From assembly GCF_026151205.1 (NCBI RefSeq), contig NC_087077.1, positions 2,914,001 through 2,978,000 on the forward strand: a stretch of 64,000 bases of DNA, written 5' to 3'. The notes under the pieces were generated by a model, which was not told the DNA's origin, made no database searches, and saw only the letters and a list, made by a program, of their open reading frames with translations. Shown one piece after another: positions 2,318 through 32,000 of the stretch. The translations under genes and the position numbers were made by a program. This DNA comes from Bolinopsis microptera. Lineage: Eukaryota > Ctenophora > Tentaculata > Lobata > Bolinopsidae. Each line of letters begins with the position of its first letter. Position 1 is the first letter of the stretch.

Positions 2318-5280
2318 TGACAGCGAGATTTCGCTGGCCCAAACCCCGAACAAGATCAAGAACATAGCACGTGATATTGGCATACCCGACAACATGGTGG
2401 AGTTATACGGGGAGTATAAAGCTAAGGTTTCTACACCTTTTTCTTGGACAGTCCCATGAACCAATATTGATTAAATCTAATATTTACTTACAAAATGAAT
2501 TGGTTTTTTATTATAAAAGCCCATTTTTTTCCCATATCCAAAAAATTTTTAATTTCCTACATTCTCAATTTTTTCGTTTTCTGTGGCCCGCTCGCTTCGC
2601 TCGCATAAAAAGTCTTTGTATTCGCGCGCCTGATACACACATTGAAGACGTGATGTGTATATGCTACTGCTTGCCAATACAGATATCGGGTGACACTGTA
2701 GACATATCCGGTTTCATAGACTAGATAAGTAGATAGTAAAATGTTAATAAAGTAATAATGACAACTATTTATGTCGTGTACGCGAAAATGCCCCAATAAT
2801 TAACATCTGGTTAGTGGTTACTTGATGCACAGATTTTGTAGCTAATAGCAACAAACTTTGGTCTGTGAAACGAAATTTGATAGACTGGATCAGTGGATCC
2901 CTGACTGAAGACATTTAAATAACGGTCCAGCAACTTTTAGTCTGCTCTTTCACTTAAATTCCTACTGAAATATTATCGAAAATTCTCAGAGTTGGCTCTC
3001 GAATTTCCTACTTTTTGTCAAAAATTTCCTACTTTTAAAAATTTCCTACATTCTTAGAATGCGAGAATGCGGGTTTTTGGATATGGGATTTTTTACCCCA
3101 ACGCAATATTCCTGGGTTTCAGATTAAGCTTGGATTGCTGGACTCCAAACAGGTCAAACAGGTCAAACAGGGGAACTACGTTCTGGTTTGTGGGTGAGTT
3201 TTACAATAAGCCTCGTGTTTACACTTGTCGGGTTCGGAACCCTTACAAATATGAAGTGACACATTGTGTGTTCTGTTAGTTTGAAAATTGAAATTTTTAA
3301 ATTCCAGAGTTCGAACACCATAAAATGCTGTTTACAATTCTTCATTTTGTGATGCTCCATACAAGTACAGTAAAATCCCGATTTACCGTACACTTAAAAA
3401 TATAGAAAGTTTTTTAAATCTGGAAAAGGGAAGAAGTACAGTAAATGGGGATTAAACCGTAGCTTCCACTCCAGGATAACCCCCACACCACTGGGGGAAG
3501 GTAAGAGCACGACGACAATAGGACTCGCTCAGTCACTATCTGCTCACCTTCACAAGCAGACCATAGCTTGTATCAGACAGCCGAGCATGGGTCCTACCTT
3601 CGGTATCAAGGGCGGAGCTGCTGGAGGGGGTTACTCACAGGTGCTCTATTTTTAAATTTTGTAACATTCCTTGACTTTTGATAATTCTGTTGTTTTTTTT
3701 TGTACTTTTTCCTAGTCAATCGGTTCGAACAATATTCAGATAATTTCAAAAGTGGTAATTGTCTAGCTATAAGGTTAGACTTAGCTATAAGGTTAGACTT
3801 ATACAACTTTTGATAATTCTATTTTGATAATTCTATTTGAAAAAAATTTTAGTTTTAATTATTAGTAAGATCCAGGTCATGCCGATGGATGAGTTCAACA
3901 TGCATTTAACTGGAGATATTCACGCTATTGCTACTGCTCATAACCTTGTTGGTAAGGGTGAACTATGCTAATTGATATTTAATTAATTGATCGTCTAATT
4001 AACATGGCGAATGGTAAACCTTCGTAAAAAATAAGTTTTCAAATTAATCTTAATTTATCAACTGAATAATTTCCATTTAATTTCAAAAGTAACAACCCCT
4101 AAATTTTCAGCCGCAGCAATAGACACTAGAATATTCCACGAGGCTACCCAAACTGACGAGGCACTGTTCAAGAGACTGTGCCCTCCCGGCAAACCCCTCC
4201 CTCAGGTTATGATAAGGAGACTAGACAAACTTGGGATAACCGGGAAAACTCCCGAGGAGATGGCCCCTGAAGATAGGGTCAGGTTTGCTAGGTACGGTCA
4301 TTATCATTAATTGTAGGTTTTTGTTGGCCCAGTTGGATTTGAATGTAATTAATATCTGCTGAAAAAAAGTGAGTTTTAGAGATACAATCTCAACAATGTT
4401 GCACTAACCTCACGAGCTTTCGTCAAATAACCATAAAATCAAGCAAATATCTAATTGACGATCAATTAGCCAAACTGAAAGCTGTATTCCAATTCTCAGA
4501 CTGAACATAGATCCGGGCACGATAATGTGGAACAGAGTACTCGATATGAACGACAGGTTTCTCAGGAAGGCAACTATTGGGCAGAGTCCCACTGAGAAAG
4601 GGATGGCTAGAGAGGTTAGTTAATAAAGTATTGAGTTTTGTAAATCAATTACCAGAGCAGATTATTTTACAATTGCCCGATGCCCGTAACTCGGATGATA
4701 TTAGGTGTGACATTTTAGAAAAATAACACATCCTGAAGAGCGGAGCAGTTTTTTCAGTTTTACACACCAATGTCCAGGGTGTTTGCCGGGGGGGGGGGGG
4801 GGGGGGGGCGATGATTGTAAGCTTGCTATTTATTTCAATTTGAAAAGATCCCAAAACCACTAAATTACCAAACTTTCAGACGAAGTGGGACATAACTGTG
4901 GCCAGTGAAATCATGGCCGTCCTGGCTCTTGCCACTGATCTGAGCGATCTTAAATCCAGGTACGAACATTTTAATGTTTTACGATTTTTAATCCAATATC
5001 AAATATTTTTGCGTCCAGAAATTTATTGACACACGCTTATAGAGTTACACCTTTATAAAAAAATATCATGCGTAACACCTTTATGTAACACTGTTTGTAA
5101 CACCGTGCCCATGTAACACCGTGCCCGGCCCATGTAACACCTTCTTCCAGGATTGGTAAGATAGTGGTAGCATACTCAGTGGACAATGTGCCAGTAACAG
5201 TGGATGACTTGGGGGTGACCGGGGCAAGTACTGCTCTCATGAGGGAGGCTCTGAAACCAAATCTCATGCAAACACTCGAG
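2318..5280 (+). CDS. MTHFD1: C1-THF synthase, formate-THF ligase domain, first eight exons
   Basis: Exons 2318-2426, 3123-3193, 3475-3640, 3876-3951, 4111-4291, 4500-4614, 4880-4959 and 5151-5280, all with AG/GT borders and matching phases. They encode the N-terminal half of formate-tetrahydrofolate ligase, which makes 10-formyl-THF from formate, THF and ATP. Visible motifs: the P-loop [11 protein letters not shown], then [17 protein letters not shown] (exon 3475-3640), [14 protein letters not shown] (3876-3951), [18 protein letters not shown] (4500-4614) and [18 protein letters not shown] (4880-4959). The last codons (KPNLMQTLE) end in phase 0 and join the exon at 26056, which continues [20 protein letters not shown] as in the family. 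Introns are 150-690 bp except the next one, which is 20,775 bp. A cytosolic trifunctional enzyme or a mitochondrial MTHFD1L-like form are both possible, because the N-terminus is not in view. Confidence 0.93.
5087..5150 (+). repeat. Short tandem repeat at the acceptor of exon 5151
   Basis: Repeats of the phrase gtaacaccgtgccc (with variants such as gtaacactgtt) fill the last ~65 bases of the intron and run into the acceptor cttcttccag at 5150. Confidence 0.7.
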
Positions 5281-6614: not shown

Positions 6615-7645
6615 CTAAACAATATGATTGTGACGACTTTTCTTCCAATAACCTGCTATGTCATCCCAAGTCGAATGAAGAAGTTGCGAGTGTTCCGCGG
6701 CGAAGGTCTGGTTCAGGAACTGGTCCGAGAGGAAGATCTGCCAGTCCCAGGTCCGGTTCTTCAAGGCTGTTTCCTCTTCTAGCTCAGTCAGAGTTGAGTT
6801 TAGTCTTCTCTGGGTCTCCTCTAACTCCGCGAGAGTAGAATTTAGGTCCGTCGACAGCTTTTCTTCTATCCTTCCTTTTTCTGCCCGAGTCTCCGTCAGC
6901 TCACGAGCTGTTTCGGTCAGCTTTCTCTCTGCACTGGCCAGTTTTTCACTCTTTTCTACAGTTTCTTCGAATACCGACTCAAGGCAATTTTCCAAGTATA
7001 CATCGGTGATTGTCCCGCTCCTTCTTTGGTTAAGCAAATCTTCCCACCTTATCACTCTAGAAGATTCGTGCACGTCTACCTCTATATTGCACATTCCAAG
7101 CTCCATCATGCTACCTATCTCACTGGAGGACAGCTCCTTTGCATACACATTCAGATAGGCCATTTCCCCTGCAAAGTCATGGCTGCTACTAGTTCCATGC
7201 CATTTTCCTATACTAAGTTCGCCTCCAGTTCTCAATGACCTGCCTGCTGCTGTTCGCTTTGTCCCTAACAGAACTCCATTTACATAATATTTGTAATCCC
7301 TCGATTCCAAACTCCACGTCACGCATACAAAGTGCCAAGTTCCTCTCGGAACGGAGTGCTTGCTTTGCCAGTGTTGACATGAGCCAAAGATACATGAGTA
7401 ACTTCCATCAGCCAGTATTAACAGCTCTCTGTTGGAGTAATGACTGAAGAATGCGCGGTGGGGGAAGGCCCGATGTCCTTAATCCACGCACAAACTGATA
7501 TGGCACTGGTTAAACGACTCCAATCAGGACTATACTGGATAAAGCTATTAGGAGCAAACTTCAGAGCTTTAGCCCTACTTAAACTTGCTGTGTCTCCAAG
7601 AGACGGTGCGATGAAGAGGGCGACGATGCTAAATAACTGGAACAT
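6615..7645 (-). CDS. Secreted pentraxin/LamG-like protein with coiled coil, one frame break
   Basis: A signal peptide (MFQLFSIVALFIAPSLG) opens the frame at 7645. It is followed by a concanavalin-like jelly-roll domain of the pentraxin/LamG type: SICAW-like strand (AISVCAWIKDIG), then FFSHYSNRELLILADGSY, GTWHFVCVTWSLESRDYKYY, VNGVLLGTKRTAAGRSLRTG and GEMAYLNVYAKELSSSEI. From about 7000 down to 6750 the protein is a heptad-rich coiled coil (LTETARELTETRAEKGRIEE and LAELEETQRRLNSTLTELEE). It ends with the W-rich module also seen at 6190-6479. The frame changes by one base inside a G/C run at about 7459-7464; both halves are clearly one domain, so this is a missing base or a real lesion. It probably forms oligomers outside the cell. 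It lies wholly inside the 20.8-kb C1-THF synthase intron, on the opposite strand. Confidence 0.7.
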
Positions 7646-8777: not shown

Positions 8778-10402
8778 CTAATAAATCACTGTTCCCAACA
8801 TCTCCTTGTCATCCTGAACCTGCTGATACTTCTTGTTCCCACTCAACACCTCCACATCATGCGGTGTCTCCGGAACCCTAATCCTGTCGGTCGTGTCAGG
8901 CAGGAAGAACACCGCCACCCCACACAAGAGCGTCATCCCGGCAAACATACCCAGAGGTACCCGTCTGTCCGTGATGTCGTAGAGCAGACTGGTATAAGTA
9001 CCGATGAAGCTGCCCATTCGAGCACAGCTGGAGCTCAGAGACATGACCATGCCGCGGTGAGAAGTGGGCGCCAGTTCCCATGTAAGGATGTAGATGACTG
9101 CAAGCGCAGCAGATATGGAGATGTTGCCCAGGAGGCAGGCCACGAACTCCAGGGTCCACTTATCGTTGATCTGTACGTCAGGCATGGCAAGGAAATTGGA
9201 CAGAATACCGCACATGAGGAAGAAGAGCATCGCTTTCTTTCTTCCTATCACTCTACACGTGGGTATGCTCAGAGAGAAAGCCAGGACTTGACCCAAGTAG
9301 CGAATATGTAGCTGACGTAGATGTTATCTGATATCTTATTAAACCCAAAGGAGAAACCGTGGAACAGGTTAGCCACTACAAACCAGGTTGCCGTGCACAA
9401 CAAGGCCTGCTTCAACATGGTTGGGTACTTTTTGAAGTCCTTGATCTGCTCCCAGAAGTTCTGCACTCGTGAAGTGTAGGTGAGGTTCACTGTGTCTAGC
9501 GAGGTCTCGTTGTTGCAGATACGAGAGAACGCTTCCAGGGTTCTCTTTGCCTCTTCTTCCCTTCCACGAACTAAAGAAAATCTCGGAGATATGGGATAGA
9601 TCAGCAGTGGAGCGATCAGGATAAAGTTGAGGATACCGAGTGTAAGGAAAATGTAGTTCCACACTGGGATAAGATACGTGATCAATACAGTTAGCAAGTA
9701 ACCAAAAGACCAGCAGATAAGGGTGAGGGCGCCGATAGAGGTCCTCAGAGTGGTTGGTGCGAACTCGACAACCCAACAGTACACACCAGTAAAGTTTATA
9801 AACTGACCGAACCCTTGGAAGATCCTGATAGCGAGCATACCCTCATAGATCGGTATCCAGGTTCCCACTAAAGTAGCCGATGCTGCTATGACAGACCCGA
9901 ATATTGCACCATTCCTTCTTCCAACTCTGTCGAATATAGCAGTAGATGACAGCAAGCCAAAACACGCTCCGATGAAGAAGAGGCTGGAAGCAACTGACAG
10001 TTTAGCTTCTGTATCACAGTAGAAACCCCAGTCAATTGAGAAGGATGTCCGCTCACTGGTCCACATGAAATCTGTATCAGCCTTCAAATTGTTGTCACAC
10101 ATGGTATTGTAACTGTAGAAAGTTTCGGAGGCATTACTTTGGACTTGAAGGTCATTACACTTGTCGGAGACACAAGCCCAATCAGTGTAGGGTATAAAGC
10201 CAGTGAAGATGGTGATGTAAGTCTCCGCGGCGGTCACGTACACACTGCCTACAGCCGAGATGAATACTAACACCAACTTGAGGTTTATGCCCGTGAACAT
10301 TTTATCAACAGTCTGGTCTATAGTTAGAGGTTCTACTGTAGCTGCCTTGTCAGTGTCTGGGTCTTCTTTTCCTGCATCGTCGAGTTTCTCCCATGATCCC
10401 AT
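8778..10402 (-). CDS. SLC22-type organic cation/anion carrier, copy 1, frameshifted
   Basis: A major-facilitator carrier of the SLC22 type, nearly identical to copy 2 at 15270-16877. The first 377-codon frame (10402-9269) covers TM1, the long Cys-rich, Asn-glycosylatable extracellular loop and about TM2-TM7; a second frame (9296-8778) covers the rest, with the family motif ELAPTSHRGMVMSL. Compared with copy 2 there is one missing base at about 9296-9300, in the codons for YxFAxLG, so translation would stop after about 377 residues. The C-terminus also runs five residues longer (GTVIY). It may be a young pseudogene, a variant allele or an assembly error, since identity elsewhere is high on both sides of the break. 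It is single-exon, unlike the three-exon SLC22 gene at 29146-31096, which hints at a retrocopied or intron-loss lineage. Confidence 0.85.
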
Positions 10403-10439
10403 TCCTGAAGTGTTTTTTTGTCGAGTTGGCTTTTTCAGC

Positions 10440-10760
10440 TGCCTTTATTTATTGTTCGGGCTAGGACAATTTAAAAAATAACAGTTAAAAGACTGAAAAT
10501 TATATTGGGATTATATTATTCACAAAAAATAACTATTAGTAGTATTAGTACTCAGAGTCATGAACTAGAATTAGGTTATTTTCCAACATAAGATAAAAAC
10601 AGAACGAAATATTAGTGACAACTGATTCAAAAATGGCTTATGCTAAAATCGTTTTATCAATGGACTAATGAAGCGAACCGATCTTAAAAATGAAATCCTC
10701 TTACGTCTTTCAATTGCGCAGAAACGTCAGCATCAGAATTGTTTAAATTGCAAAAAAACT
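10440..10760 (-). promoter_or_regulatory. Duplicated 5' flank of SLC22 copy 1
   Basis: About 300 bp upstream of the start codon that align, with small indels, to 16905-17210 upstream of copy 2. Shared phrases include cctttatttattgttcggg, ggttattttccaacataag and gcgaaccgatctta. Conservation of this block in both copies makes it the best candidate for the shared promoter region; no specific factor site is claimed. Confidence 0.5.
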
Positions 10761-15269: not shown

Positions 15270-16877
15270 TCACAACATCTCCTTCTCATCCTGAACCTGC
15301 TGATACTTCTTGTTCCCAGTCAACACCTCCACATCATGCGGTGTCTCCGGAACCCTCCTGTCGGTCGTGTCGGACAGGAAGAACACCGCCACCCCACACA
15401 CGATCGTCATCCCGGCAAACATACCCAGAGGTACCCGTCTGTCCGTGATGTCGTATAGCAGACTGGTATAAGTACCGATGAAGCTGCCCACTCGGGCACA
15501 GCTGGAGCTCAGAGACATGACCATGCCGCGATGGGAGGTCGGTGCCAGCTCGCACGTGTAGATGTAGATGACTGCAAACGCAGCGGAGATAGCAATGCTA
15601 CCCAGGAGGCAGGCCACGAACTCCAGGGTCCACTTATCGTTGATCTGTACGTCAGGCATGGCAAGGAAATTGGACAGAATACCGCAGACGAGGAAGAAGA
15701 GCATCGCCTTCTTTCTCCCCATCACTCTACACGCGGGTATGGTCAGGGAAAAGGCCAGGACTTTACCCAGCGCAGCAAACAGGTAGCTGACATAGAGGTT
15801 ATCTGATATTTTACCCCACCCAAAGGAGAAACCGTAGAACAGGTTAGCCACTACAAACCAGGTTATCATGCACAGCAAGGTCTCCTTCAACATGGTTGGG
15901 TACTTTTTGAAGTCCTTGATCTGCTCCCAGTAGTTCTGCACTCGTGAAGTGTAGGTGAGGTTCACTGTGTCTAGCGAGGTCTCGTTGTTGCAGATACGAG
16001 AGAACGCTTCCAGGGTTCTCTTTGCCTCTTCTTCCCTTCCACGAACTAAAGAAAATCTTGGAGATATGGGATAGATCAGCAGTGGAGCGATCAGGATAAA
16101 GTTGAGGATACCGAGTGTAAGGAAAATGTAGTTCCACACTGGGATGAGATAACTGATCAATACAGTAAGCAAGTAACCCAAAGACCAGCATATAAGGACG
16201 AGGGCGCTGATAGAGGTCCTCAGAGTGGTTGGTGCGAACTCGACAACCCAACAGTACACACCAGTAAAGTTTATAAACTGACCGAACCCTTGAAAGATCC
16301 TGATAGCGAGCATGCCCTCATAAGACGGTATCCAGGTTCCCACTACAGTAGCCGATGCTGCTATGACAGACCCAAATATTGCACCATTCCTTCTTCCAAC
16401 TCTGTCGAATATAGCAGTAGATGACAGCAAGCCTATACATGCTCCAATGAAAAAGAAGCTGGAAGCAACTGATAGTTTAGCTTCTGTATCACAGTAGAAA
16501 CCCCAGTCAATTGAGAAGGATGTCCGCTCACTGGTCCACATGAAATCTGTATCAGCTTTCAAATTGTTGTCACACATGGTATTGTAACTGAAGAAAGTTT
16601 CGGAGGCATTACTTTGGACTTGAAGGTCATTACACTTGTCGGAGACACAAGCCCAATCAGTGTAGGGTATAAAGCCGGTGAAGATGGTGATGTAAGTCTC
16701 CGCGGCGGTCACGTACACACTGCCTACAGCCGAGATGAATACTAACACCAACTTGAGGTTTATGCCTGTGAACATTTTATCAACGGTCTGGTCTATAGTT
16801 AGAGGTTCTACTGTAGCTGCCTTGTCAGTGTCTGGGTCTTCTTTTCCTGCATCGTCGAGTTTCTCCCATGATCCCAT
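15270..16877 (-). CDS. SLC22-type organic cation/anion carrier, copy 2, intact
   Basis: A complete 535-aa single-exon frame, the usual SLC22 length. TM1 (about residues 40-60) is followed by a long extracellular loop with several Cys and an NAS glycosylation site, ending before TM2 with the family-typical TSFSIDWGFYCD. The MFS motif DRVGRRNGAIFG follows TM2; YPISPRFSLVRGREEEA marks the cytoplasmic loop after TM6; ELAPTSHRGMVMS lies in the second half. The C-terminal tail is cytosolic. Such carriers move organic cations, anions or zwitterions across the plasma membrane; the substrate cannot be read from sequence. It is nested in the large C1-THF synthase intron, antisense to it. High identity to copy 1, also in the flanks, marks a recent segmental duplication. 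Confidence 0.92.
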   Translation of the reverse strand: MGSWEKLDDAGKEDPDTDKAATVEPLTIDQTVDKMFTGINLKLVLVFISAVGSVYVTAAETYITIFTGFIPYTDWACVSDKCNDLQVQSNASETFFSYNTMCDNNLKADTDFMWTSERTSFSIDWGFYCDTEAKLSVASSFFFIGACIGLLSSTAIFDRVGRRNGAIFGSVIAASATVVGTWIPSYEGMLAIRIFQGFGQFINFTGVYCWVVEFAPTTLRTSISALVLICWSLGYLLTVLISYLIPVWNYIFLTLGILNFILIAPLLIYPISPRFSLVRGREEEAKRTLEAFSRICNNETSLDTVNLTYTSRVQNYWEQIKDFKKYPTMLKETLLCMITWFVVANLFYGFSFGWGKISDNLYVSYLFAALGKVLAFSLTIPACRVMGRKKAMLFFLVCGILSNFLAMPDVQINDKWTLEFVACLLGSIAISAAFAVIYIYTCELAPTSHRGMVMSLSSSCARVGSFIGTYTSLLYDITDRRVPLGMFAGMTIVCGVAVFFLSDTTDRRVPETPHDVEVLTGNKKYQQVQDEKEML

Positions 16878-16904
16878 TTCTGAAGTGTTTTTTGTTGGCT
16901 TTTT

Positions 16905-17210
16905 CAGTTGCCTTTATTTATTGTTCGGGCTATGATAATTACGTCATTATCAAGAATGTTTGTATAAAAATGTTGACAATTCCAGAAATAGCAATTAAAA
17001 GAGGAGAAATTCTATAATTCGCAAGGAGAACTATTAGTAGTAGTAGTACTCCAGAGTCATTAGGTTATTTTCCAACATAAGATAAATCAGAACAAGCTAC
17101 GAGTGACGACTAACTCAAGAATGGCTATGCTGAAATTGTTATATCAATGGAGCGAACCGATCTTAACAATTAAAACTCGTATTTCAATTGCACAATAATC
17201 AGTTGAAATG
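16905..17210 (-). promoter_or_regulatory. Duplicated 5' flank of SLC22 copy 2
   Basis: Homologous to 10440-10760 upstream of copy 1 (shared ggttattttccaacataag and gcgaaccgatctta). Candidate promoter region by conservation between paralogs only. Confidence 0.45.
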
Positions 17211-19274: not shown

Positions 19275-22200
19275 TCAAGAAGCAAAGATAGTCCTCCTCC
19301 TTTTGCTGGAAACGTGCTCCATAACACCCTCAGCAGATATTTTACAACCAACAGACAGCTCCCTTCCCTCTGATAGTTCGGACTGTTTTCTACTGCCCTG
19401 TACTGACTGTCTCCTACTTGCTGGGGCCTCGTTTTCACAATCGTCCAGTATCGTTGAAACTCTCCTCATAAACCCAATGTTGCTCATCCTCAACAAAATA
19501 GGCGAGCTCTGATCCCTGAAACCTGTGGGAGGGTCGAAACAAGAGTTGGGCTGGAGACGGATCCTGCTGGAGAAGTTGCCGTTGGTGATGAGACAAGATC
19601 TGGGGTTAGGTTGAAGAGAGGGCCGGGAGAGGGAGCAGTATTCTGGAGGTGCGGGGCTAGGAGGGGTGACCAGGTGGGTTGGGGTGAGGGTTCTAGTTAT
19701 CGTGTGTTTCACTGCAACTGAGAGGTATGTCTGGAACCTACTGTTTCTCCTGGGGTTAGGTTCGGGGTTAGTTTAAACTTGCACCAACAGAAACCGGATA
19801 AAAGGTAAAATGAATAAGAAAACTAATTACTAATATTAGTAACTAATTACTAACGCGATGAGTATGACCGGGTTCAGAGCAGAGTTGATAAAGTGACTGA
19901 GGGTGTGGGAGGTGAAGAAGAGAATCTCGTCTGTCCTCAGCGCCGTGTCATCGTGAAGCATGTCACTATAAATCCACTGGTGAATTGTTATTTCATTAGG
20001 GGGATATATATAATATGGTTGTAATATTGTTTAATTGAAATTTAACGTATTTTTCAATGATTTATGGTGTTGTTCAGTCAATTTGAGAGTTGCAGTTCCA
20101 CATCCGATTGGTAGGTGGAACTGGGCAACTGCGTAAATGAACTTCCATGGGAACGTACGGACAGGACTGAAATCGCAGCCTGTATATTTTAACTCCTATA
20201 ATGCAGTTAGATCCGGTCATGTATAAAGTACTTACTACTCTTACACTCTTAGTAGTTAAAATAGGAGTTGTAAACCTTGGCACTATATAGCGGTATGGAC
20301 TGGTGGCGGACTGGCATCAGTATGAAGGAGATAAGAGGAGATAAGAAGAAGCAGATCCTTCACGTATTACGTGACATTTTCCAAGCTCTCTACTTATTAT
20401 ACATGGCTTACATTATATGTACACGATCCTTAAGTCGTCATTATACATTCAAAAGGTTGAATAAGAACCAACCTACTAATTAAGTACACAATTGGTTAAT
20501 TAATTAATTAATATATTAATTAGTTAATCACTTCATGTTCCTACCTCATGACAGTAATAGTGAGCGAGGAAGGCCAGGTTGAAGACAAGGAAGATGACAG
20601 TGATGATAACAATTGTGATCGCACTCTTGTCCCTTTTCCTCAGAGACCTGTATCTCATTAGGGTCGTGCACGTCAGAATACCTATAGAATGTATTCGTGA
20701 GATTTAAGGAATTTTTCCGATTGCATCTGTAAAATATTTGAATTTTTTGGATCTATGCTGGCATCTGAAACTTTGACAGTCAGTCGAATTTTTGTACACT
20801 GGTCTTAGAGCTCGTTCAGATTCATAAAAGTCGGGTTTTGTTCTGGAAATAGCATAGGCTGTAATAATCCTATTAGCCATTCAACGAATTATCAGTATTA
20901 TATCACCAAAATGGCACGTTTCAGAAATATTACTTATTATCAGCTCCTTTCACTCATTGGCCCAGTCTTCTCACATGACCACTAGATGCTTAGTGCTTAC
21001 AAGGTTCCAGCTTACTTTAAGTTTGATATAAGTGCAGATAAAATTTTTTAATTAAAAACTTCGTTTTCTGTCTTGAACCATCCTTGAAACCCCCTGAACC
21101 CTTAGATTTGTAGACTACAGTATGAGAGTTCACATTTAACCAACCCTTGCAGATTTAATTATCTATGCACACTTTCAGAAACACGTTTATAGATTACATG
21201 TTTTTCGGGGTACAGAGTGACTGTGTCCACCGTCGGGAAAAACACTGCCAAGTTTATTCATAATATTACCCCATTCTATAAATTATCTCCATGTCTAATT
21301 CGATAAACCTGACCACACATAAACCGCGCAACTCACCTCCTGCTAATACCGGAACAGTTGGGAGAGCGTAAGGAATGCCGTAGAAGAGAATAGTAGTTAG
21401 CAAGTGGGGGTGAGCTACTGGAACGCAGATAAAATACGGGTTATCACACGAGACCATGTCGATGGAGAAGTAGGCCAGGCTTATAGCGATCAGGCTGCCG
21501 TAGTAGGAGAGGACAGAGGCGAGGATAGCGCTGTACCGGGGCTGGTAGAACACAGCCCTCACCTGGATTGTCTGGGTGATGCACATGGTACAGGTGATGA
21601 AGACGGAGGCTCTACAGCTCACGAAGTAGAGGAAGCTGTAGATTTTGGCAAAGAGAGAGGGCGAGAGTGCTGTGAACGTGTTTTCTAGTCCTTCAACTAG
21701 CTGGGTTTTGATCATGACGTAGCTCACCCCTGATTTAGGAAAGAAATATCAATTAAAATGTTTGCTCAATGATAAAATAAGAGAATGAAGTAGAAGTTCA
21801 TATATTAATGAACAATTTACAGATATCTGATATTCATATACTACGATTAACATAATGTTGACATATATTTGATTAGAGCGGGTTGTCGAAGGAATTTATA
21901 TAAGTATGTAACTTAAAAACCGAAGCCAAAAAGGTTCAACAACTGAAAGATTTGGATTCTGATGGGAAGTGAAGCACAATTTTTTGGCACGTGTCAGAGA
22001 ATCTGCGGTTTAAGCTAATTGAAGCTAATTGGTTAATTGCAGTCTCTTATACATAATATTCTGCACCTCACCACTAGAACTCTACCTGCAGCTGATGCTC
22101 CGACAACAAGGTCTGTAACAGTAAGTAAGAGGTATAGCATCGGGGCTGTGTCCTTCCTTCTCGGTATGTAGTAGCATACCAGGATACTGTTACCTGAGCA

Positions 22201-22633
22201 CGTGATGGTTTTATAGAGTGAAACCCGGAGTTTTACCGGAGTTTTACCGGAGTTTTACCGGAGTTTTACCGGAGTTTTACCGGAGTTTTGGGGATTAACT
22301 AATGACAGTGTTCTGATGAGGGTCAGCTTTCTTAGTTAGGTACTCGAAACATAAACTTGTTATAAAAACCTGCTACTTCAAATCTCCAAATTTCTGCTGT
22401 AGTGATCAAGTTAACTATAGATTAACAAGGAAAATATTTTAAAATGCTGTCGCGAGGACACGAATAAACCTACCGATGATGGCAGTAAAGCAGGCGAGGA
22501 CAGTGAGAAGGGTGAGGGCAGCATACGCCAGGGTCAGGTGGTTAGAGTGGGGCCCACCCCCACCAATGTGGGACCCACCCCCACCAGTGTGGTGGAGGTG
22601 TGTGCTGTTACCGTAGACGTGGTAATCCGACAT
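19275..22633 (-). CDS. Orphan 7TM receptor, six exons, nested in MTHFD1 intron
   Basis: Exons (minus): 22633-22474, 22193-22086, 21729-21337, 20681-20545, 19976-19855, 19749-19275. All borders are AG/GT and all phases fit, giving a protein of 464 aa. TM1 is in exon 1 after a His/Gly-rich extracellular start with an NST glycosylation site. TM2 carries LTVTDLVVG (Leu-x3-Asp, as in class A). TM3-TM5 lie in the 393-nt exon; TM6 follows a basic loop (RYRSLRKRDKSAITIVIIT); TM7 is SHTLSHFINSALNPVILI, with Asn-Pro as in NPxxY but Leu-Ile instead of Tyr. DRY is not recognisable. The tail is Ser/Pro-rich. The ligand is unknown. The plus-strand paralog at 33710-36461 has identical lengths for exons 2-5 (108, 393, 137, 122). 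Confidence 0.88.
22229..22290. repeat. 11-bp tandem repeat (gagttttaccg), about 5-6 units
   Basis: Direct repeats of gagttttaccg within the first intron of the nested receptor gene. Confidence 0.9.
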
Positions 22634-22778
22634 TATAGCTGTGGGGTGTGGGGTATGTTCAGGAGTCAGGACGTTACAGAAGCAATTGATTTAATGTTGT
22701 CCAACTATGTAGTCTAACTTTCCTCGCGTCCTAAGATGGCGTTTCTCTTGTATTGTCTGTTCTATTGTCTCAGATATA

Positions 22779-23489: not shown

Positions 23490-26055
23490 CTCCCCACTTC
23501 TCACCCTCTTATTCCTTTTAGGGTAGCCTCACTTCTCACCCTCTTATTCCCTTTAGGGTAGCCCCACTTCTCACCCTCTTATTCCCTTTAGGGTAGCCTC
23601 ACTTCTCACCCTCTTATTCCCTTTAGGGTAGCCTCACTTCTCACCCTCTTATTCCCTTTAGGGTATCCTCACTTCTCACCCTCTTATTCCCTTTAGGGTA
23701 GCCTCACTTCTCACCCTCTTATTCCCTTTAGGGTAGCCTCACTTCTCACCCTCTTATTCTATTTAGGGTAGCCCCACTTCTCACCCTCTTATTCCCTTCA
23801 GGGTAGCCTCACTTCTCACCCTCTTATTCCCTTTAGGGTATCCTCACTTCTCACCCTCTTATTCCCTTTAGGGTAGCCTCACTTCTCACCCTCTTATTCC
23901 CTTTAGGGTAGCCTCACTTCTCACCCTCTTATTCCCTTTAGGGTATCCTCACTTCTCACCCTCTTATTCCCTTTAGGGTAGCCTCACTTCTCACCCTCTT
24001 ATTCCCTTTAGGGTATCCTCACTTCTCACCCTCTTATTCCCTTTAGGGTAGCCTCACTTCTCACCCTCTTATTCCCTTTAGGGTATCCTCACTTCTCACC
24101 CTCTTATTCCCTTTAGGGTAGCCTCACTTCTCACCCTCTTATTCCCTTTAGGGTAGCTTCACTTCTCACCCTCTTATTCCCTTTAGGGTATCCTCACTTT
24201 TCACCCTCTTATTCCCTTTAGGGTATCCTCACTTCTCACCCTCTTATTCCCTTTAGGGTATCCTCACTTCTCACCCTCTTATTCCCTTGAGGGTATCCTC
24301 ACTTCTCACCCTCTTATTCCCTTTAGGGTATCCTCACTTCTCACCCTCTTATTCCCTTTAGGGTATCCTCACTTCTCACCCTCTTATTCCCTTTAGGGTA
24401 GCCTCACTTCTCACCCTCTTATTCCCTTTAGGGTATCCTCCCTTTTTACCCTCTTATTCCCTTTAGGGTATCCTCACTTCTCACCCTCTTATTCCCTTTA
24501 GGGTATCCTCACTTCTCACCCTCTTATTCCCTTTAGGGTATCCTCACTTCTCACCCTCTTATTCCCTTTAGGGTAGCCTCACTTCTCACCCTCTTATTCC
24601 CTTTAGGGTATCCTCACTTCTCACCCTCTTATTCCCTTTAGGGTAGCCTCACTTCTCACCCTCTTATTCCCTTTAGGGTATCCTCACTTCTCACCCTCTT
24701 ATTCCCTTTAGGGTAGCCCCACTTCTCACCCTCTTATTCCCTTTAGGGTAGCCTCACTTCTCACCCTCTTATTCCCTTTAGGGTAGCCTCACTGCTCACC
24801 CTCTTATTCCCTTTAGGGTAGCCTCATTTCTCACCCTCTTATTCCCTTTAGGGTATCCTCACTTCTCACCCTCTTATTCCCTTTAGGGTATCCTCACTTC
24901 TCACCCTCTTATTCCCTTTAGGGTATCCTCACTTCTCACCCTCGTATTCCCTTTAGGGTATCCTCACTTCTCACCCTCTTATTCCCTTTAGGGTATCCTC
25001 ACTTCTCACCCTCTTATTCCCTTTAGGGTATCCTCACTTCTCACCCTCTTATTCCCTTTAGGGTATCCTCACTTCTCACCCTCTTATTCCCTTTAGGGTA
25101 TCCTCACTTCTCACCCTCTTATTCCCTTTAGGGTATCCTCCCTTCTCACCCTCTTATTCCTGACAGGGTAGCCTCACTTCTCACCCTCTTATTCCCTTTA
25201 GGGTATCCTCACTTCTCACCCTCTTATTCCCTTTAGGGTATCCTCACTTCTCACCCTCTTATTCCCTTTAGGGTATCCTCACTTCTCACCCTCTTATTCC
25301 CTTTAGGGTAGCCTCACTTCTCATCCTCTTATTCCCTTTAGGGTAGCCTCACTGCTCACCCTCTTATTCCCTTTAGGGTAGCCTCACTTCTCACCCTCTT
25401 ATTCCCTTTAGGGTATCCTCACTTCTCACCCTCTTATTCCCTTTAGGGTATCCTCACTTCTCACCCTCTTATTCCCTTTAGGGTATCCTCACTTCTCACC
25501 CTCTTATTCCCTTTAGGGTAGCCTCACTTCTCACCCTCTTATTTCCTTTAGGGTATCCTCACTTCTCACCCTCGTATTCCCTTTAGGGTATCCTCACTTC
25601 TCACCCTCTTATTCCCTTTAGGGTATCCCCACTTCTCACCCTCTTATTCCCTTTAGGGTATCCCCACTTCTCACCCTCTTATTCCCTTTAGGGTAGCCTC
25701 ACTTCTCACCCTCTTATTCCCTTTAGGGTATCCTCACTTCTCACCCTCTTATTCCCTTTAGGGTATCCCCACTTCTCACCCTCTTATTCCCTTTAGGGTA
25801 GCCTCACTTCTCACCCTCTTATTCCCTTTAGGGTATCCTCACTTCTCACCCTCTTATTCCCTTTAGGGTAGCCTCACTTCTCACCCTCTTATTCCCTTTA
25901 GGGTATCCTCACTTCTCACCCTCTTATTCCCTTTAGGGTAGCCTCACTTCTCACCCTCTTATTCCCTTTAGGGTATCCTCACTTCTCACCCTCTTATTCC
26001 CTTTAGGGTATCCTCACTTCTCACTTCTCACTTCTCACCCTCTTATTCCCTTTAG
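23490..26055 (+). repeat. 35-bp minisatellite built from a 3' splice site, about 73 units
   Basis: Uniform 35-bp units, each with a C/T-rich tract (cttctcaccctcttattccc), then tttag, then ggta(g/t)cc. The last unit reads tttag|ggtagcccggtg and is the real acceptor and first codons (Gly-Ser-Pro) of the C1-THF synthase exon that starts at 26056. Two unit types alternate, differing at ggtag versus ggtat. A few units have other changes (for example near 24437, 25158 and 25324). Just before the end a short cacttct triplication is visible (26018-26040). Confidence 0.97.
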
Positions 26056-29000
26056 GGTAGCCCGGTGATGGTCCACGCTGGACCCTTCGCTAACATTGCA
26101 CATGGCAACTCTTCTATAATTGCGGACAGGGTAAGAAGCAAATGTTTTCATTTTAAGGAAATTATTTATTGTTCGTATTTCTGATGTGATTTAGAATAAC
26201 TATGTATCATGAAATGTACTTTAAATTGATAGATTTCTCACCTTTAACCAATGAAAAATTAAAGAATCCACTATTCTATCGAAGCAAACATTCCTACTTA
26301 AAGATGATATTATTTTATAAATCTCTGCTGCTAGATGGCGCTGAAACTGGTCGGAAGTGATGGGTACGTTTGTACGGAAGCCGGGTTTGGAGCCGACATT
26401 GGTGGTGAGAAATTCTTCGATATCAAGTGCAGATACAGTGGGCTCCGTCCCAATGCTGCTGTCTTGGTCTGCACTGTTAGGGCTCTTAAAATGCACGGTG
26501 GAGGTCCTAATGTGAGTATTTAACTTTTATTACATTGTTTTGTGCGGTGTTTTCCAGCCGATTGGTACTCTTCTAAGACAGAGGATTATTATTGTCAAAA
26601 TAGGTTTTCAAAATGATTGCATAATTGCATTGTCAAAATAATTGCATCGTAAATAAACTTATGATGCATCCAACTTTAGCCCAGGACTTGGGCGCGGGTT
26701 TTTATTGATAGCAATGATGAACATTAATAAACTGAAAGCGCGGCGAAAGGACATTATCTCAAAAAGTCGAATAAATTTCAATTAAAAATTATTGATCAAC
26801 AACAACAAAAATAGGTATGCTCATGAAATGAACTGGAAGTGGCAAATTTATATGAACCTCTGATACTGGCAGAATATTTATTATGTATATAAATGTATAT
26901 AAACATATAATAAAATAAATGCATCAATTTTCACGACTTTTAATGCGACGGTAATTTGTATCAATTATTATAGAAAATTGCGTGAAAATTGCGTGAAAAT
27001 TGCTTGAAACTTACGAGAGCAGCACAATTTGTCACCAGTAGCAACTGCATTTGTTGACTAAAACTTATAATGACTTTAACAGTAAACAATAATACTAATG
27101 GTATTCATTATTAACCGAGCTGCAAAGGTTTATTAGGCCTGCGCAACATTCTAATTGTTGTGATTATAAGGACCATTTCCGCGGTTAACGGGAGTTATTG
27201 TTATATTATACACTTGTAATATGTTGTGTGTTATGTTATAGTATCTAGGGTTTGTCTACTAATTGGTGGAGGATACCTCATTAATTACATCAATTACGAA
27301 TAAGACAATATATAATGCATAATCAACTTCTCCTACAACAAAAATAAAAAATGAATTAGAAGGTTAGCCTTTTAATTCAAAACAAGATAAACCATTGTTT
27401 GTACCGGTACAGATTACCGCATTAACTTAATGATCATTAATTTATTAATAATTTTTGTATGTACGATCCTGATTAATAATAATAGTAATGCCAGTGAGCT
27501 AGCAGGCGCGGTCACCATGTCAGGAATAACTAACAAAAAAATTAAAACTTGGAGTGGAAATTTGGCGAATTATACGCGTATTTTTAAAAACCTTGAATAC
27601 GGCATATCATTTGATAAAAAGAGAAAAAGGTAGTTCGTATTTAAAACAACACTCTAACAGTGTTAGTAACACACTTTAACAGTGTTAGTAACACTCTCTA
27701 ACAGTGTTAGTAACACTCTATAACAGTGTTAGTAACACTCTCTAACAGTGTTAGTAACACTCTCTAACAGTGTTAGTAACACTCTCTAAACTCTCTAACA
27801 GTGTTAGTAACACTCTCTAACAGTGTTAGTAACACTCTATAACAGTGTTAGTAACACTCTCTAACAGTGTTAGTAACACTCTCTAACAGTGTTAGTAACA
27901 CTTTCTAACAGTGTTAGCAACACCACGTGACCTAGGTTACACCTGGAGGAGGACTAGCTCCGGAGTATAAAGAGGAGAACTTGGAACTGCTCTCCAAGGG
28001 TCTCGTTCACCTGACCAAGCAGATAGGGAATGTGACCCAGTTCGGGGCACCGTGTGTGGTCGCTATTAATCGGTCGGTATTGACATTTTATAGCATAATA
28101 TTATAGATTTATGAGTATGTATTTAGTATTAATATAGACAATTTCGTAAGTTCTCGACAAATTTACGTTCGAATTCGACGGACGTTCGTTTACCGCTCAA
28201 CGCAGAAATATTATAAACAAGCATAATAATTTTTCTTTGTCACAACTCACGTCTTCATCACAATAATGCCTCACTCACCATTCTACAGATTCCACACTGA
28301 TACGGAATCAGAGTTGGAGATGGTCCGGAAACACGCTCTGAAGAGCGGAGCATTTGACGCACAGGTTGCGGAACACTGGGAAAAGGGGGGCGAGGGAGCC
28401 GTCAATCTGGCTCATGCTGTCGTGAACGCTTGTAAAACTCCTTCTAATTTCAAGGTGAGTGATCAATTAGTTGACTAATTAGTTTATTAGTTGATGAGAG
28501 TTGTGAGTCTGGTCAATTATTAAGAAAGGGTAAAATGCTGGTGATTCAAATCAAAGTGGCGCATTGGCTGGAAATGAAACTATTGAGTTTTTATATTGCT
28601 GGTCTAATAAGTTTGTAGTCGGACCTAGTAATACATGTTTATAATTCTATTAGCTCTTTTCCATACGCTGCTTCAATCGTGAGCCCATTTCCATGCAATC
28701 ATTTCCCCAGTTTTTGTACGACTTGGAACAACCTCTAATCTCGAAGATGAACATCATTGTACAGAAGATATACGGCGGAGAGGGGGTTGAGATCTCGGAG
28801 GAGATAGCTGATAAGATTAAAAACTTGGAAAATCAGGTTCAAATTCCAGAAAATTGCTTTATATAGCTTAGGGCATTACTGAGTACTCTGTTTGCGAACT
28901 GTATATCGTCAAACATTTTATATCGCCATGTACGTTATTTATCGTCATAATTATTTATCAATTGTTAATTACATAGAAAATGTTAGCGTTATCAAATGGC

Positions 29001-32000
29001 AACAAATTTAATCATTACTCGTTAATTTGCAATTTTTATAAAATACTACACGCAAATCGTTTTCTTCAAAATTTTCATATAGCGAAAAATTAAATTGTTA
29101 TTATTTGAGTAATCTGTAATAGTATTTTTCTCCATCCTCGCCCTTTTAGCATGAAAAAAGCCTGTTCCTCAACTTTAAGATCACTTTTTGATCATCCCGT
29201 CTCTCTCGTACGTCCCTTGCCGTTTCCGGTATCGGCCGACCTCTGGTTTCCGGTAGTACCAGTGAAGTTAGAGCACAACTCGCTGCGAGGATCCCAAACA
29301 GACTTAGTCTCTGCATACTGGTCAAATCCGCCGCTGAGAGGAGAGGGCCAAAAAATGCGGAAACTCGTCCGAAAAGAGAGCCTGCACACGATATCAACCC
29401 TCGGTGTGTAGTTGGAGCCACTTCCCCAGCTAGAAGAAAGATAAGACAGAAGCTGGAGGCAGCGAAAAAGGAAGCAAACATTGACATTATCCTCTCCATA
29501 TTCCAATGCGGGGAGAAACTCTTGTTGATCGTACCAAGGAAGAAACACAGCGAAGCTGAAACGAGATTTTATGTAAAATTGATGAGAAACGGCTAACTAA
29601 CTTATCCATTGGGCGTTGAAGAACATACATTTGTAAATTTTGATGAAAGGTGAATTATTAAATCGCAAACAGCACCACAAAACTTACCACCAATATAGAA
29701 GGAAACCAAAGCCACTTTACGTCCGACCACCTTCAGAACCAGCATAACACTAACATTAGCAATCAGCTCACCTACTGCAACATACAAATATGTCACATAC
29801 AGGGAGTCACAAAATTTGTCCCAACCATATACCAAACCGTAAAAGAGAAGAGCCGATACCATAAAAGCCCAACAAATGCAACCTGTCTCCAAAAGCATCC
29901 CTGGATACATTTTGAACTCTAGCAACTGCTTTAGTAACGGCATCTTCTCTTTTAGAGTACCCCTTTCACTCTCATCTGTGCCATCTGTCAACTTCACTCC
30001 CTCAAGATTTATGTCCACTTTTGCTAACTTAGCCCATCGTTTTAGGGTGCTAGCAGCCTGGTCGGATTTCCCTATTGAAATGAGATATCTTGGAGAATCA
30101 GGATAAAACAGCAGTGGAAGTTGACAAAATGCCTGAACTAAACTAACTGCCACACAAATAATCCTCCAGTTGTGAATGAAATAGCTTATGGAGACGAGAG
30201 TCGGATATCCCACTACCCACATGACTGCAATCCAGCTGTTATAAAAGGGTCGATACTGAATAGGAGTCATCTCGAAGATCCAAATGTATGCTCCCAGGTA
30301 TCCTAGCTGATCACCCAACCCCTGTAAAATCCTCAGTACAATGAGGGCCGTGAAACTGGTAGCAAAGGTGCTACAGAAGGTTGCTATGGTGATTATCACC
30401 GCCCCACCAGCTGCAACCCGCCTTCTCCCCACCCTCTCGTACAGTAGGGACCCTGAAGCTACTCCTAATATGGATCCTATGTAGTGTACAGAGTGGTACA
30501 GACTCAGAGATGAGGGAGAACAATACAGGTCCAGCTCTACTGAGAAACTGGTTCGTGTAATGTTCCATATGAAATCCTCTCCGTGGGACAAATTAGACTT
30601 GCAAATGTTTTCAGTTTTGTAAAATTGTTCGGATTGTCCTTGCTGTATTGCCTTTGTGAGCTGGTCATCGCATTTCGCTGAGATACATTGGAATCCTTCA
30701 GATGGGATAAAGCCAGTAAAAATTCCTATGTAAGAAGAAAGGCAGCCTACCTGAAATGCATTATAGACAGTTTTTGGGAGTTCCAAATAATGTATTAGGT
30801 TAAGAGGAAAAATCGGAGAGGCTGCAATGCAAAGCTAATCGTCAGAGTCAAATCCCGAATACAGCATTGGTCTGGAATATAGCATTTAAAGTGAATGAAG
30901 ACGAAATATGATTTATTTATACACAATTTCCAGAAGTTATTTCATAATATGAATTATTAGAAAAGTGATGTAAAAGAATATAAGTCTTTACCATTCCGAT
31001 CGTTGTAGCCCAAACCCAAAGAATACCTAGCAGAAAAGGTGGGCTTTCGCTAAACTTATTTATAAGACTTTCGACAGAGATGGTCTTTACCGGCATATTC
31101 GAAATTTATTTATCGTCAAAATAAATCACAAACGGGACAAAACGTAAGATGATACACAGCATTGAGCAATGATCACGCATGGTCAAGATTAAGAGATAAT
31201 TTTATCAAGGCTGATGTCCCAAATTGATTTAAACTTGGTGTTTTTGCGGTTTCACCTTTCATCAATTTGAATACGGGTCGATTTTTTAACTTAACAGAAT
31301 TCATCATTGATCCTACAAGTTATATAAAAATAAGCTATACCCTAATATTTTATAATCTGGACTAAAGATAAAATCATAACTTTTTGATTAATATCATAAC
31401 TTTAATTAATGATCATAACTTTAATTAATGACCATAACTTTGGTAACCTTTTTCAACTATTTCTAAACGCGACATTTCAGGGATACGGAAACCTCCCGAT
31501 TTGTATGGCAAAAACCCACTTGTCCCTCAGTTGTGATGTCAGTAAGAAGGGAGTTCCCACTGGGTTTAAGGTTCCTATACAGGATGTTAGGCTGAGTGCT
31601 GGAGCGGGATTTGTGTACCCCCTTGCTGGAACCGTAAGTTGTATTAGTCCTCGTGTTACAATCTTTATATTACACTTTATGTGTCATATTATTTTTATTA
31701 CTATTCACTTACCTTATCAGCTTGTACCGGACTATTGTGGTCTCAACAATTAAAATATATTTCTATCAATGAACCACTTCCAGGTATCTTAAAATTGAAT
31801 CGTGCAGCAAATGTAATACTAATTATACTAATTACACGTTAATCTGTAACAATTAACCCCGTGAAGCCAAAGCAATTCATAACAAATTGTTGTCAGTATT
31901 AGCATTATTATGCTACATAATATATGTGACATGAATTAAGTCCTCAATTATAATATAATTGAGAGATATAATTGTAAGATACGTAAAACTGTTCTGAGAT

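Follow-up and report, generated by a model that had tools for sequence, protein, structure and literature searches.

How does a spliceosome settle on one 3′ splice site when dozens of near-identical sites lie in a row in front of the exon? This question is raised by intron 8 of the C1-THF synthase gene of the lobate ctenophore Bolinopsis microptera, which lies in a 64,000-nucleotide stretch (the window) of a 20.9-Mb contig (20,932,313 bp) in an assembly of 264.65 Mb. The 3′ end of this intron is taken up by a minisatellite of 73 head-to-tail units (window positions 23491-26062), all of 35 bp except for the final one of 49 bp, and the last of them is the acceptor of exon 9. Taken as a whole, the locus is probably best explained as a boundary minisatellite of the kind known from amphioxus as "mirages", in which the last unit is chosen and normal mRNA can still be made.

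An array of about 73 copies had been proposed from the sequence alone, which is borne out by Tandem Repeats Finder (TRF), with a single array at 23491-26024 (period 35, 72.4 copies, 96% matches), and by 73 occurrences of the core AGGGTA. As these are spaced 35 bp apart at 71 intervals and 49 bp at one, no unit has been missed, and with 73 copies at 96% matches chance is no issue. Each unit consists of a branch-point-like site, a pyrimidine tract, AG and GGTA(G/T)CC, reading TCACTTCTCACCCTCTTATTCCCTTTAG followed by GGTA(G/T)CC on the plus strand. The original prediction gave the exon-derived part as GGTAGCC, which holds for 31 of the 73 units but not for the 42 that read GGTATCC. A tandem repeat of minisatellite size (35 bp, 73 copies) therefore runs across an exon-intron boundary, with its last unit over the exon 9 acceptor and an AG in 73/73 units. 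The first of the decoy AGs lies at 23520-23521 and the last at 26005-26006; the decoys number 72, where some 70 had been expected. A site of the type YTNAY, the loose branch-point pattern of animals, stands 18 nt before the G of the AG in every unit (73/73) and is exactly CTCAC in 70 of them. The terminal unit differs by two additional copies of the 7-mer CTCACTT (TRF: CTCACTT x3.7 at 26013-26038), which gives it four CTCAC motifs, while the inner decoys (n=71) have two in 59 cases, one in 11 and none in one, and the first unit has one. Its AG follows the preceding AG by 49 nt, the longest gap in the array, all other gaps being 30 or 35 nt.

The gene model comprises fifteen exons (2318-32142) with one open frame of 616 residues, corresponding to the formyltetrahydrofolate synthetase (FTHFS) part of C1-THF synthase. 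The match to PDB 4ioj (FTHFS; E 2.2e-177) covers both flanks of the exon 8/exon 9 junction, which is in frame and in phase 0, and the assignment of the last unit as the acceptor of the exon at 26056 is thereby upheld by the gene model and by the continuity of the 4ioj match (Table 1). Intron 8 measures 20,775 bp, in contrast to 159-2644 bp for the remaining 13 introns. In a search of the whole genome with PF01268, all 13 FTHFS-domain matches among those listed fall at the C1-THF locus. A second FTHFS gene, of the mitochondrial type, is not seen for the assembly among these matches.

Table 1. Features around the exon 8/exon 9 junction of the C1-THF synthase gene (window coordinates; exons numbered within the window model; a slash in the donor marks the splice site; ORF, open reading frame)
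Feature	Position	Strand	Description	Evidence
Exon 8	5151-5280	+	Ends ...QTLE; donor GAG/GTAATT	Gene model, 4ioj alignment, P0001 tblastn
Intron 8	5281-26055	+	20,775 bp; minus-strand ORFs/genes inside, array at 3′ end	Gene model
Decoy units (n=72)	23491-26006	+	35 bp each; branch-point-like site, pyrimidine tract, AG, GGTA(G/T)CC	
Terminal unit	26007-26055	+	49 bp; AG 26054-26055 is the exon 9 acceptor	
Exon 9	26056-26130	+	Starts GGTAGCCCGG; first 7-8 nt correspond to the exonic part of the units	

The use of the last acceptor is documented by P0001, a protein of 927 aa encoded on a contig of 3,169 bp, which is identical to the gene model at 614 of 616 residues. Its residues 576-620 match at 5146-5280 in tblastn, and it crosses the exon 8/exon 9 junction unbroken and without insertion, which means that the last acceptor was joined to exon 8. 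As the genomic matches of P0001 extend across some 58 kb (-26391 to 32139), its contig, presumably part of an assembly of public reads, should derive from spliced RNA. The evidence is strong, if not final, that Bolinopsis microptera, or a species very close to it, makes a correctly spliced product with the last of the 73 acceptors; a regular mRNA can thus be assigned to the locus with the reserve that P0001 is one contig. The junction from 5280 to 26056 on which the original prediction depended holds in this protein, while its expectation that scanning should lead the spliceosome to an early unit is not supported, in view of the same protein and of the YTNAY site in all 73 units. In a simulation of decoy use, the insert of each decoy (49 to 2,534 nt) was read on into the exons that follow, and in 72/72 cases the frame ended in a stop, 17-69 codons on. 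A protein search for a variant isoform, with a query running from the last part of exon 8 up to exon 15, gave no Bolinopsis-named match in the best 120 of 7786 (top identity 72%), a listing that proves little.

The origin of the array can be approached from the distribution and the content of its unit. With up to 3 mismatches allowed in the 264.65-Mb genome, a 24-base core gave at least 72 forward and 0 reverse matches among those listed, every one within the array; the unit at 25165 has 4 mismatches to this core, and the core pattern read backwards gave 0 listed matches in the same genome. A dispersed satellite or a transposon-borne repeat, which would have spoken against the proposed origin, is not supported, since all core copies among the matches listed lie within the array. 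The exonic GGTAGCC is the start of the codons for conserved residues: GSPV at the start of exon 9 is kept in Mnemiopsis P0002 (GSPVLVHAGPF) and in P0003, and the start of exon 9 should therefore be older than the array. The conserved 7-8 exonic nucleotides in the unit, the lack of any other genome match and the position directly next to the real acceptor support the original prediction that amplification of the splice site gave rise to the array. Six units read GCCCCACTT or TCCCCACTT at the join, which points to a microhomology of CCC shared by the exonic GTAGCCC and by CCTCCCCACTT at the array's left edge. A 35-bp stretch of the intron 8 end that reached 7-8 nt into exon 9 would have been tandemly duplicated, probably across this CCC, and growth to 73 units could have followed by slippage or unequal exchange.

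Repeats of this kind are not without precedent. In amphioxus, mirages are known for Adh, the globins BflGb6 and BflGb9, PGBD5 and troponin C, and in the available portions of the two reports the regular splicing of the Adh3 and globin mirages is described as undisturbed (PMC3087553, PMC3902484). As far as these portions go, the amphioxus cases share with the ctenophore array minisatellite-like repeats over an exon-intron boundary and many units with AG or GT, with either boundary being affected. They differ in phylum, in copy number (73 units here, 6 and 3 in two haplotypes of BflGb6) and in unit length (35 bp here, 150-160 bp in the globins and 10-72 bp in Adh3). The array thus belongs to a known kind, a boundary repeat, and is not the mark of a broken gene. 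No ctenophore case of a boundary minisatellite was found by title in the open-access literature, which leaves out most subscription papers, and neither a search for the genome paper nor the accessible part of PMC12221973 yielded anything on repeats in introns. What is new in the literature searched is the phylum, the copy number of 73 and the presence of another such array at a distance of 112 kb, which is described below. The minisatellite at a splice boundary of human IFI6 (6-16) reportedly supplies several splice donor sites, of which alternative ones are used; it multiplies donors, whereas the ctenophore array multiplies an acceptor.

Why, then, should the last unit be chosen? Scanning for AG runs from the branch point in use, according to the accessible part of PMC1431707, and as all 73 units own a branch-like site, it does not force the use of an early unit. 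Scanning would stay within a unit, and the decision would be which unit binds U2AF and U2. As the sites are near-identical, whatever chooses the last one must lie on the exon side or in the few differences of the terminal unit. Exon definition may be the main factor, because only the terminal unit adjoins real exon with a donor, that of exon 9, behind it, with its four CTCAC motifs as a possible added advantage. Scanning from the branch point is shared with exons that have a distant branch point and an AG exclusion zone, as far as the accessible part of PMC1431707 describes them; these differ in that the preceding AG is only 49 nt away in the ctenophore array, so that the branch point is expected no farther upstream than about 15 nt before the start of the terminal unit. 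Leakage into the decoys would bring premature stops and loss of the product by nonsense-mediated decay (NMD). Since exon definition would set the last unit off poorly from its two or three nearest neighbours upstream, the prediction is that a minor share of the RNA is misspliced and sensitive to NMD.

Several observations weigh against choice of the last unit in this way. Exon definition alone cannot separate this unit from the previous few, which would give candidate exons of 124, 159, 194 ... nt. The acceptor in use has a middling position weight matrix score (4.3, 11th of 14, with a matrix trained on the same sites), the uniqueness of the terminal unit was spotted post hoc and may reflect the edge of the array, and a branch-like TTCAAC also precedes unit 1, which leaves an early unit without an evident disadvantage. 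P0001 may stem from an array-free allele or from a very closely related species and, being one contig, says nothing about splicing proportions.

The decoys could also have a function. A regulatory rheostat of "poison acceptors", in which the decoys take part of the splicing, NMD removes the product and the copy number sets the output of the enzyme, would agree with the premature stop behind each of the 72 decoys, and AG together with the GGTA behind it is kept in 72/72 decoys. This conservation is, on the other hand, unremarkable: among 29 variants outside the dimorphic column (72 decoys) none falls in the two AG columns, for which the chance probability is roughly 0.17-0.3 (an estimate), so that selection on the decoy AGs is not significant by this estimate. 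Predicted boundaries furthermore have no excess of tandem repeats, and a rheostat is considered unlikely.

It is improbable that the reference allele is misspliced through early units while P0001 comes from an array-free allele or a sister species. P0001 does differ at 2 of 616 residues, but this is close to identity when compared with 89% for Mnemiopsis. With one FTHFS locus among the matches listed, a failure to splice correctly should come at a high cost, and mirages in amphioxus are reported not to disturb splicing, as far as the available portions of PMC3087553 and PMC3902484 go.

Masking of the decoys by RNA pairing deserves still less credence. ACCCU would pair with AGGGU at the AG of its own or a neighbouring unit, and the terminal AG would be freed by the flanking exon. 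The predicted probability of an unpaired AG (window 120, span 80) has a mean of 0.0057 for the decoys (n=72) and is 0.0165 for the terminal unit, which ranks 1 of 73 for openness in all three settings tried, while values of 0.05-0.78 apply to the gene's remaining 13 acceptors; the region 25800-26140 folds better than 100/100 shuffles (z -2.5). Arrays of shuffled units also mask the AG, however, 8/40 of them at least as strongly, and the terminal AG is likewise predicted to be about 98% paired. AGGGUA is also the sequence of the exon 9 donor. An assembly artefact with a small true copy number is very improbable: long arrays are prone to misassembly, with one such case for an amphioxus mirage in the accessible part of PMC3087553, but 17 distinct sequences in 73 units on a 20.9-Mb contig are hardly expected from a small true array.

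Recursive splice sites, which act as ratchet points, were considered as well. They resemble the units in having AG near GT, but the units read AG/GGTA instead of AG/GT, so that recursion would add one G per round. This candidate was rejected, as AG is followed by GGTA in 73/73 units with no GT directly after the AG.

TRF was run over 264 kb of contiguous sequence (the window and 200 kb upstream), which gave 40 arrays with a period of at least 15 and at least 3 copies. One of these, the second boundary array, 61 bp x 24.4 on the minus strand (L032:125-1605; C6:2824125-2825605), lies at the exon 2 donor of PIGB, a gene about 112 kb upstream on the same contig. Its 24 units of 60-61 bp consist of the last 52 bp of exon 2 and the donor GTAAGTTAG, and with the real donor included (n=24) they end in CTG/GT in 20 cases and in CTGATGAG, in which the GT is lost, in 4. 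PIGB exons 1-2 match PF03901 at 4.4e-22, the relative P0129 reads PLLILRVLG across the exon 2 junction, and the tail of exon 2 is matched again by tblastn at many array units. A protein search with the PIGB product found no same-species transcript across this junction. The NCBI model of PIGB, P0121 (372 aa, Bolinopsis microptera; C6:2817868-2826328, L031-L032), is without the first exons and begins past the array intron, its start being a Met at the end of the apparent exon 4; gene models may be cut short by such boundary arrays. Immediately before the first coding exon (L032:2328-2449; C6:2826328-2826449) stands a 34-bp x 3.6 repeat with CCTAG in its units, which may represent either an array of acceptors or a repeat of the 5′ untranslated region.

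How common such arrays are can be judged in this region with a rough exon finder whose training set was the C1-THF gene itself, most of its 100 predicted exons being without a homology check; one spurious exon inside the array was set aside, which leaves 99 in the 264 kb. In the C1-THF gene, a tandem repeat with a period of at least 7 lies within 100 bp of 5/14 acceptors and 0/14 donors. An attraction of tandem repeats to 3′ splice sites was nevertheless rejected, as 11/99 predicted acceptors and 7/99 donors have one, compared with 10.9% of 20,000 random places. Boundaries are also not locally recurrent above other DNA: recurrence at 80% and above, within 2 kb, is seen for 5/200 predicted boundaries compared with 29/500 random places, if anything the reverse. 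Two of these five belong to the spurious array exon, and the others are exon 9, the PIGB exon 2 donor and the 5′ end of the first predicted PIGB exon, a putative acceptor with the 34-bp repeat. Among 28 curated C1-THF boundaries the exon 9 acceptor alone recurs (identity 1.0), the other 27 reaching at most 0.70. As neither local recurrence nor nearby repeats are in excess at predicted boundaries, arrays seem to cover boundaries by chance, because repeats arise anywhere. PIGB is the sole unbiased find (1 in 200 kb), which makes any genome-wide frequency guesswork. It is doubtful whether boundary arrays are common at acceptors and donors of ctenophore genes, with a spliceosome that reliably picks the exon-adjacent site among dozens of near-identical ones, and so form natural experiments that separate out the information on the exon side.

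Other features of the gene stand apart from the array. On the minus strand, intron 8 holds an MFS transporter ORF of 547 aa (15270-16913), a 391-aa stretch related to an MFS transporter (9269-10444) that continues in another frame, and a laminin-G-like ORF (6615-7478); a third minus-strand MFS transporter ORF lies in intron 14 (28837-31480). Hydrophobic exons are predicted at 20545-22638, and the single ORF scanned there has no Pfam match. A partly palindromic 22-bp repeat, CTCTAACAGTGTTAGTAACACT, occurs in about 12 copies at 27648-27923 and stops 12 bp short of the acceptor at 27936, which it excludes. Exon 2 has an in-frame triplication of 9 bp at 3146-3171, CAAACAGGT (KQVKQVKQ), not shown by Mnemiopsis P0002 or P0003.

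In Bolinopsis, 72 near-identical acceptors thus stand in series before the real one in the only FTHFS gene among the matches listed. Boundary arrays are a possible source of errors in gene annotation. If confirmed in a genotyped animal, the locus would be a near-ideal natural competition assay for the choice of splice sites, and its confirmation would extend boundary minisatellites from the cephalochordates to a distant phylum.

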